From positions 1 to 38,031 of the forward strand of contig JABHXF010000035.1 of assembly GCA_018657385.1 (NCBI GenBank): a stretch of 38,031 nucleotides of DNA. Reading direction: 5' to 3'. Every line of letters starts with the position of its first letter. Position 1 is the first letter of the stretch. This document shows, piece by piece, positions 25,043 through 37,320 of this stretch. The stretch is from Candidatus Woesearchaeota archaeon (GTDB lineage: Archaea > Nanobdellota > Nanobdellia > Woesearchaeales > DSVV01). Made by a program: the position numbers and the translations under genes. Below the pieces are notes generated by a model, which ran no database searches, was not told the DNA's origin, and saw only the letters and a list, made by a program, of their open reading frames with translations.

Positions 25043-25123
25043 TACTAGGGCGAAGCCAATGTAGCCCGTGATTTTTTTAATTAATAAAATCTTCCAGAGA
25101 AACATGTCCTCCGGACCCAGTAA
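25043..25123 (-). repeat. 81-nt structured repeat, copy A
   Basis: Full-length copy of a family also at 32551 and 33704 (truncated at 37286), here on the minus strand. Read on that strand, it runs from TACTGGGTCC to CCTAGTA. It holds hairpin 1 GTCC-gga-GGAC, a central A+T-rich stem around TTAATTAA, a shared block AATCACGGGCTACA, and hairpin 2 GGC-ttc-GCC near the 3' end. It sits between the tRNA terminator and the end of the convergent secreted-protein gene. Confidence 0.85.
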
Positions 25124-25185
25124 AGAAAAAAAACTGATTAAACATCAAATATATACTTTGCTTGCCAAAAAGCTGACCGCATTGT

Positions 25186-32538: not shown

Positions 32539-32550
32539 TTATTTCTTTTT

Positions 32551-32631
32551 TACTAGGTCCGGAGGACGTGTTTCTCTGGAGGATTTTATTAATTAAAAAA
32601 TCACGGGCTACATGGACTTCGTCACTAGTTA
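32551..32631 (+). repeat. 81-nt structured repeat, copy B
   Basis: Starts 12 bp after the enolase stop, directly after TTTCTTTTT. ACTAG (32552-32556) pairs with CTAGT near the end. It has hairpin 1 GTCC-gga-GGAC, a central GATTTT/AAAATC stem around TTAATTAA, and hairpin 2 GAC-ttc-GTC. Compared with copies A and C (GGC-ttc-GCC), hairpin 2 carries a compensatory A-T for G-C change. Confidence 0.85.
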
Positions 32632-33081: not shown

Positions 33082-33594
33082 TTACCAATTCCCCAAAACA
33101 ATGAATCCATTGTATAAGTTATTCAATAAATTCTTATTTTTAACTTCATTTTCATTTTTAAACATGAAAATCTGAATTTTTCTCTTAAGTTTTTTTTCAA
33201 ACTTTTCTAAATGTAACTCTTTTTTTGAAGAGGTAAAAATAGCAATATCAATATCTGAGTTTTCATTAACTTCTGCCTTTGATAATGAGCCAAACAAGAT
33301 AACTAAAGGAGAAATTAGTTCTTTATCAAAATATTCAGTAAGCTTTATCTCTTTAAATCTCTGATACCAGTAATTCCTTGATAAATCAATAAATATTTTG
33401 CTTTCTTTATTAGCAAAATAGTAATTATAACCTCTATCTTCTTCTTTATTTAGTAAACCATCTTGTTTTAGAGATTCAAGTAATGTTGAAGCAGTTGGTG
33501 GACTTATATTTCTAATTCTTGCGTATTCCCTAACATTGATTCTTCTATAACAATCATTGAAAAAAGGTTCCAAATCGTTAAATATTTTTAACAT
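33082..33594 (-). CDS. wHTH-nucleotidyltransferase (MNT-type antitoxin)
   Basis: A 170-residue fusion. Residues 1-60 are a winged helix (INVREYARIRNISPPTASTLLESLKQDGLL, then a wing NKEEDRGYNYYF). Residues about 85-165 are a Pol-beta-type nucleotidyltransferase with VILFGSLSKAEVNENSDIDIAIF, holding the G-S and D-x-D active-site residues. In MNT-HEPN pairs the nucleotidyltransferase neutralises the HEPN RNase, in known cases by AMPylating it. The ATG lies inside a perfect TTAACATATGTTAA palindrome with more TTAACA sites upstream, so the winged helix very likely represses this operon. The HEPN partner is broken. Confidence 0.85.
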   Translation of the reverse strand: MLKIFNDLEPFFNDCYRRINVREYARIRNISPPTASTLLESLKQDGLLNKEEDRGYNYYFANKESKIFIDLSRNYWYQRFKEIKLTEYFDKELISPLVILFGSLSKAEVNENSDIDIAIFTSSKKELHLEKFEKKLKRKIQIFMFKNENEVKNKNLLNNLYNGFIVLGNW

Positions 33595-33672
33595 ATGTTA
33601 AATAATATTAACACTTATATTTAAATCTTTTGGTTGTTAAGGATATTTAACAGGTGTTAAGTTAATTTAACA
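33588..33672 (-). promoter_or_regulatory. Palindromic operators and TATA box of the MNT-HEPN operon
   Basis: TTAACATATGTTAA at 33588-33601 covers the start codon (33594). TTAACA-gg-TGTTAA lies at 33647-33660. Half-sites TTAACA are at 33608-33613 and 33667-33672, and TGTTAA at 33635-33640. A minus-strand TATA (complement of 33614-33626) sits between them, predicting a leaderless start at the ATG. Autoregulation by the encoded winged helix is inferred. Confidence 0.65.
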
Positions 33673-33703
33673 TAATAATAGACATTTAAAGAATCATCTT
33701 TTT

Positions 33704-33784
33704 TACTAGGTCCGGAGGACGTGCTCCTCACTAATTTTAATTAAATTAAAAAAATCACAAGCTACATTGGCTTCGCCCTAGTTA
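33704..33784 (+). repeat. 81-nt structured repeat, copy C
   Basis: Begins TACTAGGTCCGGAGGACGTG after a T-tract and ends GGCTTCGCCCTAGTTA. Both hairpins are kept (GTCC-gga-GGAC and GGC-ttc-GCC), while the middle differs more (CTCCTCACTAATTTTAATTA). It lies between the MNT operon promoter and the 3' end of the 272-residue gene. Confidence 0.85.
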
Positions 33785-33835: not shown

Positions 33836-34654
33836 TTATTTTTCCAATGAAGAGTATTTAACAACAAGCTCATCTAAATCTAATAATAATTGATCTTGAG
33901 AATCAGAATTCATAGTTTGATATGGTTGTCTAAGGGATTTTATCTTTGCTCTAAATAGTCTTAAATATCTTTCTTTTACTACATCTCTTTGGCCTTTTTT
34001 CTTTTCTTTGTCATATAATTTTTTTAATTCTCCTAAGGGAACATTCTCTTTTTCTAGATCATAAATCCAATCTACTCTTTTTCTAAAATCTTCTAAACTT
34101 TGATTTTCACCTAAGTCTAAATCAACCCTATCCTCTAATCCATCATCTTTTTTTAACATATTTTTTAACTTAGTCATTGCTTTGATGATATATATTCTAT
34201 CTTTGAATTCGTCGTATTGAATCCCTGAATTAGGAGGATATACAAACGCATCATCAGGTAAAGGTTTATGAGGATACTTACCAAGATAACACAATTCTAA
34301 TGATTTCTTTACAACAGGAATTATTTCATTATCTGGAGCAACATCTAAAGCGTACAGCAACTTAGGGACACTATCTAGATCATGATTAACAAAGTAAAAT
34401 TTTCCACTGCGAGAAATAATTGAAAGAAAACTATGAGAGTTATCACTACAAGGCATGTCATGCCTAAACCTATGGCCTTGAACAGTATGAGGATAAGAAA
34501 TAGTTGTTTCAAATGTAGTAAATTCTCTACTCATTGCTTTAGCAATATCAACAAGCCTAAGATCTTTCTCAACTAATATTCCTTTAAAGAGAACAGAAAG
34601 TTTTTGTGATGCTTCCTTCAAAGCTGCTTCATCTTCAGAACTTAGTTCAAACAT
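33836..34654 (-). CDS. Unrecognised 272-residue protein, partner of aminotransferase-cupin
   Basis: No family recognised. It has no signal or membrane segment. The N-terminal half (1-135) looks globular, with FTTFETTISYPHTVQGHRFRHDMPCSDNSHSFLSII rich in His, then FYFVNHDLDSVPKLLYALDVAPDNEI. The C-terminal half is charged and helical (KAMTKLKNMLKKDD, GELKKLYDKEKKKGQRDVVKERYLRLFRAKIKSL). AGGGGAT lies 5 bp before the ATG, and the upstream aminotransferase-cupin stop is 11 bp away, so both are one operon. The His cluster could bind a metal. A shared pathway with the aminotransferase is the inference; its reaction is unknown. Confidence 0.6.
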   Translation of the reverse strand: MFELSSEDEAALKEASQKLSVLFKGILVEKDLRLVDIAKAMSREFTTFETTISYPHTVQGHRFRHDMPCSDNSHSFLSIISRSGKFYFVNHDLDSVPKLLYALDVAPDNEIIPVVKKSLELCYLGKYPHKPLPDDAFVYPPNSGIQYDEFKDRIYIIKAMTKLKNMLKKDDGLEDRVDLDLGENQSLEDFRKRVDWIYDLEKENVPLGELKKLYDKEKKKGQRDVVKERYLRLFRAKIKSLRQPYQTMNSDSQDQLLLDLDELVVKYSSLEK

Positions 34655-34665
34655 TTTTATCCCCT

Positions 34666-36069
34666 TTATTTTTCTGTTGGATTATAAACACCTTGCACTT
34701 TTTCAGGTTGATATGGAAATCTAAGTGGAATAAATCTAGCAAATCTATTAGGTAATGTTTCAATGTAATGGTTTTGTCCAGGTTTAACATTAACCCATTG
34801 TCCTGGTTGAACTTCAAATCTGTTCCCATCTAACTCAAAATATGCTCTTGAATGAAATTCAAAAAGTTCATCTTGATCAGGATGATTATGTGTTGGAACA
34901 TTTCCACCAGGAGGAACAATAAGTCTATGTAATCCCATCAAAAAATTTGAATGTTCGCAATGTATTTCTTTTCTATTTACAGTATAACCTGCATCTCTTG
35001 TATTAATAACAGAAGCTGCATTTGAATTCTTAACATCTAAATCATACAACCAAGAAACAGACTCAAACAAATCAATAATTCTATCCATTTCATCAGAAGG
35101 ACACATAGTAACTCTATAAAAATTAGTTAATTTATCGTGATAATCTCCTAAATGACGAATAGCAATTCCTGCTGCTTCTGCTTGTTCTCTTAAAAATAAA
35201 CTTTGATTTTCAGGCACAACAACAATAGAAGAATGATTATCAGTTTCTAATACTCGGTAAGATGGAAGTTCTCTAATAGCAAGATTAAATCTTTTTTTTT
35301 CCTCCCTTATTATTTGTGCATTTTCTTTATAATGTTCTTCTGAATCTAAAGCAGCAGTAGCTACTTGTTGAGCAATATTATCAAATCCAAGATATCGCTC
35401 ATTAAAATTAATCATTTCTTTAACATTTTCCCCACATAAAGCATATGCTATTCTAACTCCAGCAAGACCATAAAATTTTGAAAATGCCCTAGCTACTAGT
35501 AGATTAGGAAATGAATTTACAAGACTAGTAATATCTTTAACATTATCTTCCCTAAAACCTTCATGTGTTTGATCAAGAAGAACTAATGTTTCTTCTGGTG
35601 TTGCTTCTAATATTTTTTGTAGATCATTATTTGAAGTAGAAAAACCTAACGGACCTTCAGGATCAATAAGAACAAGAACATTTGATTTATGTTGAAGTTT
35701 ATCTAACAAATCAATTATGTTATAACTAAAAGAGTTCTGTTTGTCATGAAAGCTAAAAGTGGTTATTTTGGCTTTATGATGAGAAGCTAATTTATGATAA
35801 TAAGGAAATCCTAATTCAGGTAAAATAACTGGTGTTTGTGGTGATAGAATATAATCAAAAACTCTATGAATAACTCCAATTACTCCTTGTTCTAAGAATA
35901 TTCTTTCTTTATCAACACCATGTTTTTTAGCTAATACCTCTAACATAAGTGGATCTTTTTGATAACGACTAAGGGTTTCAATATCACAAGAAGAGAGTGC
36001 TTCAGTTACCTTTATTGATGGTGGAAAGTTGAGTTCATCTTTGTCTGCATGTATCATTTTTATTACCAT
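34666..36069 (-). CDS. HisC-like PLP aminotransferase fused to a cupin domain
   Basis: A 467-residue fusion. Residues about 5-345 are a fold-type I aminotransferase of the histidinol-phosphate/threonine-phosphate decarboxylase group: PELGFPYY, the Asp in LVLLDQTHEGF, and PLP Lys198 in RAFSKFYGLAGVRIAY. The canonical NP-x-x-PTG loop is altered to IDPEGPLGF. Residues about 370-455 are a cupin with THNHPDQDELFEF and GQWVNVKPGQNHYIE, giving a His/His/Glu/His metal site. Such a fusion is unusual; the cupin could bind or modify the product. No other His or cobalamin genes are nearby. AGAGGT lies about 16 bp upstream of the first ATG; the ATG four codons later is possible. Confidence 0.8.
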   Translation of the reverse strand: MVIKMIHADKDELNFPPSIKVTEALSSCDIETLSRYQKDPLMLEVLAKKHGVDKERIFLEQGVIGVIHRVFDYILSPQTPVILPELGFPYYHKLASHHKAKITTFSFHDKQNSFSYNIIDLLDKLQHKSNVLVLIDPEGPLGFSTSNNDLQKILEATPEETLVLLDQTHEGFREDNVKDITSLVNSFPNLLVARAFSKFYGLAGVRIAYALCGENVKEMINFNERYLGFDNIAQQVATAALDSEEHYKENAQIIREEKKRFNLAIRELPSYRVLETDNHSSIVVVPENQSLFLREQAEAAGIAIRHLGDYHDKLTNFYRVTMCPSDEMDRIIDLFESVSWLYDLDVKNSNAASVINTRDAGYTVNRKEIHCEHSNFLMGLHRLIVPPGGNVPTHNHPDQDELFEFHSRAYFELDGNRFEVQPGQWVNVKPGQNHYIETLPNRFARFIPLRFPYQPEKVQGVYNPTEK

Positions 36070-36390
36070 TTTTACCCTTATTTTACCTCTTTGTCACCCA
36101 AGAGTAGTTATGAAACAAGACAAGCTTAATAAGGTTTGGTACACTTAAAATTAAACTAAAAGTTTAAATATAAGTTACATTATACTAAAAGTTTAATTAC
36201 ATTTTCATTTAATAGCAAAAAACAACAACTTGGCCAGGCGAAGCGAAGCTGAGTAGGACTTTAGAATAAAGTCCGTCTGTGCCATTATTGTTGTTGTTTT
36301 TTGCTTCAGGGTAGAGAAACATTACTAAAAAGAGTAAGATTACACTAAAATCAAGAAAAAGATTACCAAAAACTGTAAACAACAACAAAA
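36070..36390. promoter_or_regulatory. Divergent promoter region with four ACTAAAA boxes
   Basis: This gap of 321 bp separates the aminotransferase operon (minus) from the wHTH gene (plus). ACTAAAA occurs at 36155, 36184, 36324 and 36344; the first two extend to a 13-bp repeat ACTAAAAGTTTAA spaced 29 bp, beside a TATA-like TTTAAATATAA. Two boxes lie on each side of the hairpin element (36214-36305). They are candidate sites for the wHTH protein. No small gene is seen. Confidence 0.45.
36214..36305. other. Multi-hairpin element 2 (similar to 28104-28239)
   Basis: A perfect 16-bp inverted repeat, AGCAAAAAACAACAAC (36214-36229) and its complement (36290-36305), extended by TGGC (36231-36234) with GCCA (36281-36284). 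Inside are a GCGAAGCGAAGC stretch and a perfect hairpin GGACTTTA-gaa-TAAAGTCC (36256-36274). The order TGGC, GCGAAGC, TAGGA, stem, TCTGTG, GCCA matches the element at 28.1 kb. It lies in the middle of the divergent promoter region. Confidence 0.65.
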
Positions 36391-37269
36391 ATGGCAATTG
36401 AAATAACCACACCAAGCCTAGGAACAGCAAAAAAAACAACAAAAGACTTAGTCATAAGTACATTAATGTATGAATATCCTTTAACTTTAGCAAAGATAAC
36501 AAATTCTATCAAAAAGAAATTTCATGCTAGTGTTACATTCCAAGGAGTAAGAAAAGCAGTTAACCAATTAGTAGAAAATGAAGTTATTGTAAAAATTGGA
36601 GAAAAAAGTAAGCACTATCAGTTAAACAAAGAATGGATAGTAAAATTAAGAGACTTTGCTGAGCAAATGCATGAATCATATTACTCAAAAAGTAAAGGAA
36701 TTAGAGAAGTTGAGGCAATTGGTGAAGATATTAAAGTTTATACATTTGATAATCTTATTGATTTAGATAAATTTTGGGATAAATTAATAACTAGATGGTT
36801 TGAAGCCGATAAAGATAATCCAAAAAAGAAAGTTTATGCCCAACTTTCAGGACATACATGGTATGTTCTTGGACAATTAGGAGAAGAAACTGCAATCTTA
36901 GAAACAATTAAAAAACATAATATTAATTTTTATATTTTTGCAAATGATAATACTTTTTTAGACAGATGGTCAAAAAAATATTACAATGATCTTGGCTTCC
37001 ATTACACAACAAACAAAAGTAAAAAAAGAAATACCAATGCAAGATACTTCTCTGTCTATAATGATTTAATAGTACAGGCTGAATATCCACAAAAAATTGC
37101 AGATGAAATTGATGAAGTCTATAATAATACAAAAGATTTTGAAAGTTTTGACGCTACAAAATTAATAAGAATATTAAGAGAAAAAGCAGAATTAAAAGTA
37201 ACAGTAATGAGAAATCCTATTGTTGCAGAACAATTGAGGGAATCTATATTAAGGCATTTTAAGAAGTAA
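36391..37269 (+). CDS. Winged-helix regulator-like protein
   Basis: A 292-residue protein. Residues about 18-85 form a winged helix (KDLVISTLMYEYPLTLAKITNSIKKKFHASVTFQGVRKAVNQLVENEVIVKIGEKSKHYQLN), preceded by a short Thr/Lys-rich leader. Residues 100-292 are a second domain of unknown type (FWDKLITRWFEADKDNPKKKVYAQLSGHTW, INFYIFANDNTFLDRWSKKYY). Archaea have many such two-domain regulators, whose second domain may bind a small ligand. It is divergent from the aminotransferase-cupin operon and probably regulates it and itself. Followed by a T-tract and truncated repeat copy D. Confidence 0.7.
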   Translation: MAIEITTPSLGTAKKTTKDLVISTLMYEYPLTLAKITNSIKKKFHASVTFQGVRKAVNQLVENEVIVKIGEKSKHYQLNKEWIVKLRDFAEQMHESYYSKSKGIREVEAIGEDIKVYTFDNLIDLDKFWDKLITRWFEADKDNPKKKVYAQLSGHTWYVLGQLGEETAILETIKKHNINFYIFANDNTFLDRWSKKYYNDLGFHYTTNKSKKRNTNARYFSVYNDLIVQAEYPQKIADEIDEVYNNTKDFESFDATKLIRILREKAELKVTVMRNPIVAEQLRESILRHFKK

Positions 37270-37285
37270 ATGTTTTTTTCTTTTT

Positions 37286-37320
37286 TACTAGGTCCGAAGG
37301 ACATGTTTCTCTGGAATTTT
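37286..37320 (+). repeat. 81-nt structured repeat, copy D (truncated)
   Basis: The first 35 nt match copies A and B, with hairpin 1 GTCC-gaa-GGAC (loop change only) and ATGTTTCTCTGGA. The second half is missing and replaced by T-rich sequence about 40 bp before the IS200 right-end hairpin, so truncation may be linked to that insertion. Confidence 0.7.

Follow-up and report, generated by a model that had tools for sequence, protein, structure and literature searches.

Introduction

Transcriptional regulators of the TrmB family bind palindromes that lie over the TFB-recognition element and TATA box (BRE/TATA) or over the start site of promoters, and the Thermococcales glycolytic motif (TGM), TATCAC-N5-GTGATA, is one such sequence (PMC4158304). 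Here we describe a divergent gene pair from an uncultivated Candidatus Woesearchaeota archaeon, in which the gene for a 292-residue winged helix-turn-helix (wHTH) protein faces that of a 467-residue fusion between a pyridoxal phosphate (PLP) enzyme and a cupin. The pair lies on a contig of 38,031 bases (C3, GenBank JABHXF010000035.1), hereafter the window, from a 1.54-Mb genome (G000; 60 contigs, 90% completeness).

We propose, with a probability of roughly 0.6, that this locus is a divergent regulator-enzyme unit composed of a TrmB-like regulator and a PLP enzyme of the HisC/CobD fold. Like TrmB, TrmBL1 and TrmBL2 of the Thermococcales, the regulator has a wHTH followed by a phospholipase-D-like (PLD-like) domain, with TrmBL2 as its best fold match, and its putative site is a palindrome at the BRE/TATA with the 6-N5-6 spacing of the TGM (PMC4158304). 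It differs from these proteins in that the Pfam TrmB model (PF01978) matches only 1 of 50 family members, weakly (E 0.003), in the sequence of its site, and in that each regulator has a single predicted target and no regulon. The enzyme shares with HisC (TIGR01141) the fold, the catalytic Lys, the PLP-ring Asp and an SK-x-x-x-L-x-x-x-R motif, but scores below the HisC cut-off, has lost the Asn and Tyr of the NPxxPxG and DEAY motifs, is fused to a cupin, has a haloacid dehalogenase (HAD) neighbour in relatives and lacks a histidine pathway marker. With CobD, the L-threonine-O-3-phosphate decarboxylase (TIGR01140), it shares the superfamily and possibly phosphate-type substrates; its CobD score of 105.7 bits is, however, well below the cut-off of 290.55, and no cobalamin genes are seen around it. 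The cupin resembles Cupin_2 metal cupins (PF07883) in its ligands and differs from them in its weak score and its fusion to a PLP enzyme.

The enzyme and regulator genes form a conserved divergent unit

An earlier, sequence-only reading of this DNA had placed three open reading frames (ORFs) of 272, 467 and 292 residues here, with the wHTH gene facing the enzyme gene, and we confirmed their coordinates and strands (Table 1). Our searches covered 60 close genomes, 353 from the order and a phylum-wide sample of 371. Orthologues of the enzyme are rare, with three others in the order (G344, G267 and G008, the last a Candidatus Woesearchaeota metagenome-assembled genome (MAG) of the same family, contig JACQSP010000117.1); the class adds a single further one (G426) and a Micrarchaeota MAG another (L054). 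This Micrarchaeota member was added by a profile scan of genome contigs, a scan with the single enzyme sequence having given nothing.

A wHTH gene is divergent from the enzyme gene in G000, G344, G267 and G008, that is, in four genomes from three families, and the regulators of these relatives are 52-59% identical to that of the window, so the divergent arrangement proposed from a single sequence is conserved. No wHTH gene was seen on the 11-kb contig of G426, and the L054 contig ends just upstream of the enzyme gene. In G344 and G008 the next gene downstream of the enzyme encodes a HAD phosphatase of the beta-phosphoglucomutase group, which falls under the cut-off of the subfamily model TIGR02009; in G267, G426 and L054 an unrelated convergent gene lies there. 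We conclude that the aminotransferase-cupin fusion and its divergent wHTH gene are a real conserved unit.

Separately, in G426 a gene for a 194-residue protein of no known family (L056, 10423-11007, minus strand) overlaps the enzyme-cupin gene at its start.

The enzyme forms a clade apart from HisC

The enzyme matched the Pfam model Aminotran_1_2 (PF00155) over residues 26-333 (E 7.7e-33; 114.6 against a gathering cut-off of 19.7), and its C-terminal part matched Cupin_2 over residues 383-437 with a score just below the cut-off (E 1.2e-5; 25.3 against 27.2). The cupin is present in the window, G344, G267 and G426 and absent from G008 and L054, and the HxHx4E motif and later His are intact in all four fused members of our alignment. 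The true start of the window's enzyme may be at about 36057, because its orthologues begin at an internal Met. Our literature search found nothing relevant to a HisC-cupin fusion.

In a tree of 18 PLP enzymes the six members formed one clade (support 100/100, stem length 2.0) that was separate from a true HisC and from the enzymes of his operons. The clade retains Asp166, Ser197, Lys198 and Arg206 (alignment A4), which we take, from what is established for this fold, to be the PLP-ring, phosphate and Schiff-base residues. Two motifs have changed in all six members: DPExPLG takes the place of NPxxPxG, the Asn being Gly, Ser, Val or Gln, and D[QE]xH that of DEAY, the Tyr being His. Five comparison sequences retain both the Asn and the Tyr. 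In classical enzymes of this fold, that Asn and that Tyr contact O3' of PLP. The sequence-only reading had described a HisC-like enzyme, changed in its substrate loop and joined to a metal-binding cupin, and the domain matches and alignment support such a fusion with changed active-site motifs.

We considered whether the enzyme is an ordinary HisC, left over from histidine synthesis or acting as a replacement within it, as would be suggested by its best NCBIfam model (TIGR01141, 156 bits) and by its PDB relatives, most of which are labelled HisC. Every member tested nevertheless falls far under the curated cut-off of 276.55 bits, five orthologues scoring 132-176, and a true hisC that does exceed it is present as another gene in G008. 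Histidinol dehydrogenase (HisD) was not found in any of the five enzyme-bearing genomes tested, the window's own included, as against 13 of 14 controls in which it was found. Together with the changed O3' contacts and the long stem of the clade, these results make a role in histidine synthesis very improbable, and we set it aside on score, clade and missing HisD. As judged from its residues and scores, the enzyme is a divergent member of the HisC/CobD fold and not HisC.

A different and less remote alternative, although still rather unlikely, is that the enzyme is not a transaminase and catalyses another PLP reaction, such as decarboxylation as in CobD or elimination or cyclisation as in GntC or VioD, with the cupin finishing the product. 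The loss of both O3'-contacting residues across the clade would fit such a reaction, as would Arg/Lys variation at the carboxylate/phosphate site and the presence of CobD, GntC and capreomycidine synthase among the second-tier NCBIfam matches. Yet the catalytic Lys, ring-nitrogen Asp and phosphate Arg are all retained, no member gives a family-level match to CobD, GntC or VioD-type enzymes, and the type of reaction cannot be read from sequence alone.

The regulator belongs to a large family of one archaeal class

By sequence, the 292-residue protein gave nothing convincing in Pfam, NCBIfam or PDB. An AlphaFold2 model built from 50 sequences comprises a wHTH, a long linker helix and an alpha/beta domain, so that the protein has one DNA-binding domain and one PLD-like domain. 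The best solved match found by Foldseek was TrmBL2 (probability 1.00), followed by, among others, PLD-family nucleases. Whole-chain TM-scores were only 0.32-0.35, which indicates a shared architecture and not close kinship.

A profile of four regulators found the family in 82 of the 353 genomes of the order, and a 50-member profile found it in 68 of the 371 phylum-wide genomes, all of the same class. It is a large, class-wide wHTH family without a label in Pfam, NCBIfam or PHROGs, and our literature search found nothing relevant on a DPANN regulator family of the wHTH plus PLD-like kind. The surroundings could be read for 49 members, of which 45 diverge from the closest gene upstream, and each seems to act on the facing gene alone. 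Among these neighbours are at least five short-chain dehydrogenase/reductase (SDR) proteins, two PLP enzymes, radical S-adenosylmethionine (SAM) proteins and one glucosamine-6-phosphate-isomerase-like protein, besides many unknowns.

The two PLP enzymes beside wHTH members (L041 and L029, in G041 and G179) fall in the tree in another HisC/CobD-like clade (FHGGASF...). In G041 the PLP enzyme gene is followed by genes for a HAD phosphatase and a methyltransferase-like protein, so that an aminotransferase-HAD pair lies beside a wHTH gene in an unrelated aminotransferase clade. Five loci (L021, L025, L026, L028 and L033) have wHTH members divergent from short-chain dehydrogenase-like proteins, which suggests a second recurring target. 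The window's genome has a second member (L061, contig C19), divergent from a 396-residue unknown ORF and with the operator variant GCTACAA-N6-TTGTACC.

A putative operator covers the promoter of the regulator

Upstream regions of the family have in common GGTTCAAY-N4-RTTRAACCAAAARGTTTAAAWA, and the predicted operator takes the family-wide form GGTTCAA-N6-TTRAACC-AAAARGTTTAAAWA. Enzyme promoters carry a variant, GGTACAC...AATTAAACNAAAAGTTTAAA, with the core TTAAAC-N5-GTTTAA. The distance from the first base of the consensus to the start codon is 54-59 nt in 28 of 46 promoters, and for 34 of the 46 none of 200 dinucleotide shuffles matched as well, a test that is partly circular because the consensus was drawn from the same promoters. 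In an independent scan of 13 genomes, which allowed up to three mismatches and used the reversed consensus as a control, 13 sites were found in 12 genomes, all directly upstream of a wHTH gene, and none with the control; the remaining genome, that of the window, has a site of the enzyme type. Only five perfect copies of the enzyme-type core occur across the four genomes. Three of the five lie in enzyme promoters, of which there are four, and one lies in G008, where a further wHTH paralogue and a radical-SAM-like gene diverge from it. In some members the two arms vary together (GGTTCAA/TTGAACC or GGTACAA/TTGTACC), which fits a site read by a symmetric dimer.

These data bear on whether the conserved sequence might be core promoter only, that is, BRE/TATA and AT-rich bias, with the wHTH proteins having other targets. 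The motif does include AAAARGTTTAAAWA, a normal archaeal BRE/TATA, and the word ACTAAAA is not enriched across the window (22 found, 22.1 expected). However, genomes have essentially one copy each of the full 34-mer, at wHTH genes only, and its left arm, which covaries with the right, lies outside the core promoter, so we regard this explanation as quite unlikely. A divergent unit with a predicted operator specific to its wHTH gene is well supported and, in our judgement, very likely.

Four ACTAAAA boxes had been singled out between the genes. They are present (36155, 36184, 36324 and 36344, with about 0.2 expected in that stretch), but not as boxes in their own right: the first two are the centres of inverted repeats, fragments of a larger predicted operator over the regulator's BRE/TATA; the last two lack arms and look incidental. 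The word alone, being too short and not enriched, was rejected as the operator. Rfam contained no match to an RNA in the region.

The 272-residue gene is probably a local addition

The 272-residue ORF is coding, with a codon score positive in frame 0 only, a Shine-Dalgarno sequence (AAAGGGG) and an 11-bp gap to the enzyme gene. It had been described as belonging to no recognised family, and we indeed found no match in Pfam, NCBIfam or PDB. It had also been cast as the partner of the fusion enzyme. That it is a true functional partner, for example one that replaces the HAD step, would accord with its coding signal, its place in the same operon and its position in the slot that holds the HAD gene in two relatives. 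Our searches nevertheless found no relative outside the window's genome, whether in the 60 close genomes, the 371 phylum genomes or sets of phage, plasmid and viral sequences; the protein has no HAD motif, and a single-sequence structure model was uninformative (pLDDT, the predicted local distance difference test, 39). The pairing is not conserved, and we consider partnership unlikely. Because relatives have a HAD phosphatase or nothing in this slot, we place the 272-residue protein outside the conserved unit, as a local addition to it, and reject it as a conserved partner. An 81-residue match in G063 (E 0.009) and a PHROG match (E 0.01) were judged to be chance. The proposal of a new pathway is plausible though unproven: its enzyme-regulator unit stands and its 272-residue partner does not.

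A hairpin insertion and other nearby features

A 92-bp hairpin lies between the operator and the regulator gene of the window. It has 43 matches in its own genome (about 40 copies) and a fold z of -6.4, and the distance from the first base of the operator to the regulator start is 253 nt in the window and usually about 56 nt in relatives.

Another repeat, TTTACTAGGTCCGRAGGAC, contains a short GTCC/GGAC hairpin and occurs four times in the window (25106-25124, minus strand; 32549-32567; 33702-33720; 37284-37302), with none expected by chance and three copies just after gene ends. The unit is adjoined by an IS200-type Y1 transposase gene (PF01797; 37417-37911, minus strand) that could be linked to the repeated hairpins. 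A wHTH fused to an MNT-like nucleotidyltransferase domain is encoded at 33082-33594 (minus strand), with GTTAA/TTAAC words repeated upstream (about 33595-33675).

Table 1. Features of the enzyme-regulator locus, in window coordinates (aa, amino acids; MITE, miniature inverted-repeat transposable element).
Feature	Position	Strand	Remarks
272-aa lineage-specific protein	33836..34654	-	translationally close to enzyme gene; no relative found
Shine-Dalgarno-like AAAGGGGA of 272-aa gene	34660..34667	-	overlaps enzyme stop codon
467-aa PLP fold-type-I enzyme and cupin	34666..36069	-	HisC/CobD-like about aa 1-340, C-terminal cupin about aa 346-467; Pfam/NCBIfam, alignments, clade 100/100
Cupin domain	34666..35034	-	HxHx4E and distal His (metal ligands); in 4/6 clade members, absent in 2
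Predicted operator/promoter GGTACACTTAAAATTAAACTAAAAGTTTAAATAT	36138..36171	+	covers BRE/TATA of regulator's ancestral promoter; 25/31 match to family consensus; common to G267 and G008
Perfect inverted repeat TTAAAC-TAAAA-GTTTAA	36151..36167		sole perfect copy in genome; holds first ACTAAAA
Second site TTATAC-TAAAA-GTTTAA	36180..36196		one mismatch; counterpart of site abutting regulator ATG in relatives
MITE-like hairpin, 92 bp	36214..36305		perfect 16-bp inverted repeats at its ends; inserted so as to separate operator from regulator start
292-aa regulator	36391..37269	+	N-terminal wHTH and C-terminal PLD-like domain; AlphaFold2 pLDDT 90.5; Foldseek TrmBL2 (E 1.5e-8), NucT/Nuc

Discussion

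We propose that the regulator, probably in dimeric form, recognises the inverted repeat that separates the genes, where it would cover the BRE/TATA of its own gene and sit next to that of the enzyme gene, and that it controls no promoters other than this divergent pair. Bound there, it would probably block TBP and TFB until a small effector releases it; such TrmB-like, effector-released repression is probable in our view. The substrate would most likely be a phosphorylated small molecule, resembling a sugar or polyol phosphate, on which the enzyme moves or makes an amino group, after which the HAD phosphatase beside it in relatives would remove the phosphate and the optional metal cupin would carry out a following step or hold the product. 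We suggest a phosphorylated substrate because of the enzyme's superfamily and its HAD neighbours, and hold this part tentatively, at somewhat less than even odds.

Several observations weigh against this proposal. A HAD gene adjoins the enzyme in only two of the six orthologous loci, and the second (later) active-site Arg is retained in three members and replaced by Lys in the other three. The consensus was built from the promoters that it scores, part of it is ordinary BRE/TATA, and G344 fits it poorly in full, though several near sites are present there. Finally, the hairpin sets the regulator about 200 bp away from the operator in the window, and regulation there may therefore be altered, broken or unlike that in relatives.

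The boldest version of our proposal, which we think improbable, is that the six-member clade is a new type of PLP enzyme in which the altered O3' contacts serve a reaction that is not transamination, and that, joined to a metal cupin, it makes a metabolite in reduced-genome archaea under the switch of regulators that form a new, class-wide family, each with a single target and an operator that can be read from sequence.

To our knowledge, gene regulation in these tiny-genome archaea is almost unstudied. The locus is of interest for its regulator family no less than for its enzyme, which belongs to a small PLP clade that is clearly set apart and unusual in its active site. The regulators have a predicted site at a fixed distance from their own start codon in dozens of genomes, which provides regulator-site-target triples that are directly testable in vitro, and their neighbours, among them PLP enzymes, SDRs and radical SAM enzymes, form a catalogue of what these archaea may switch.

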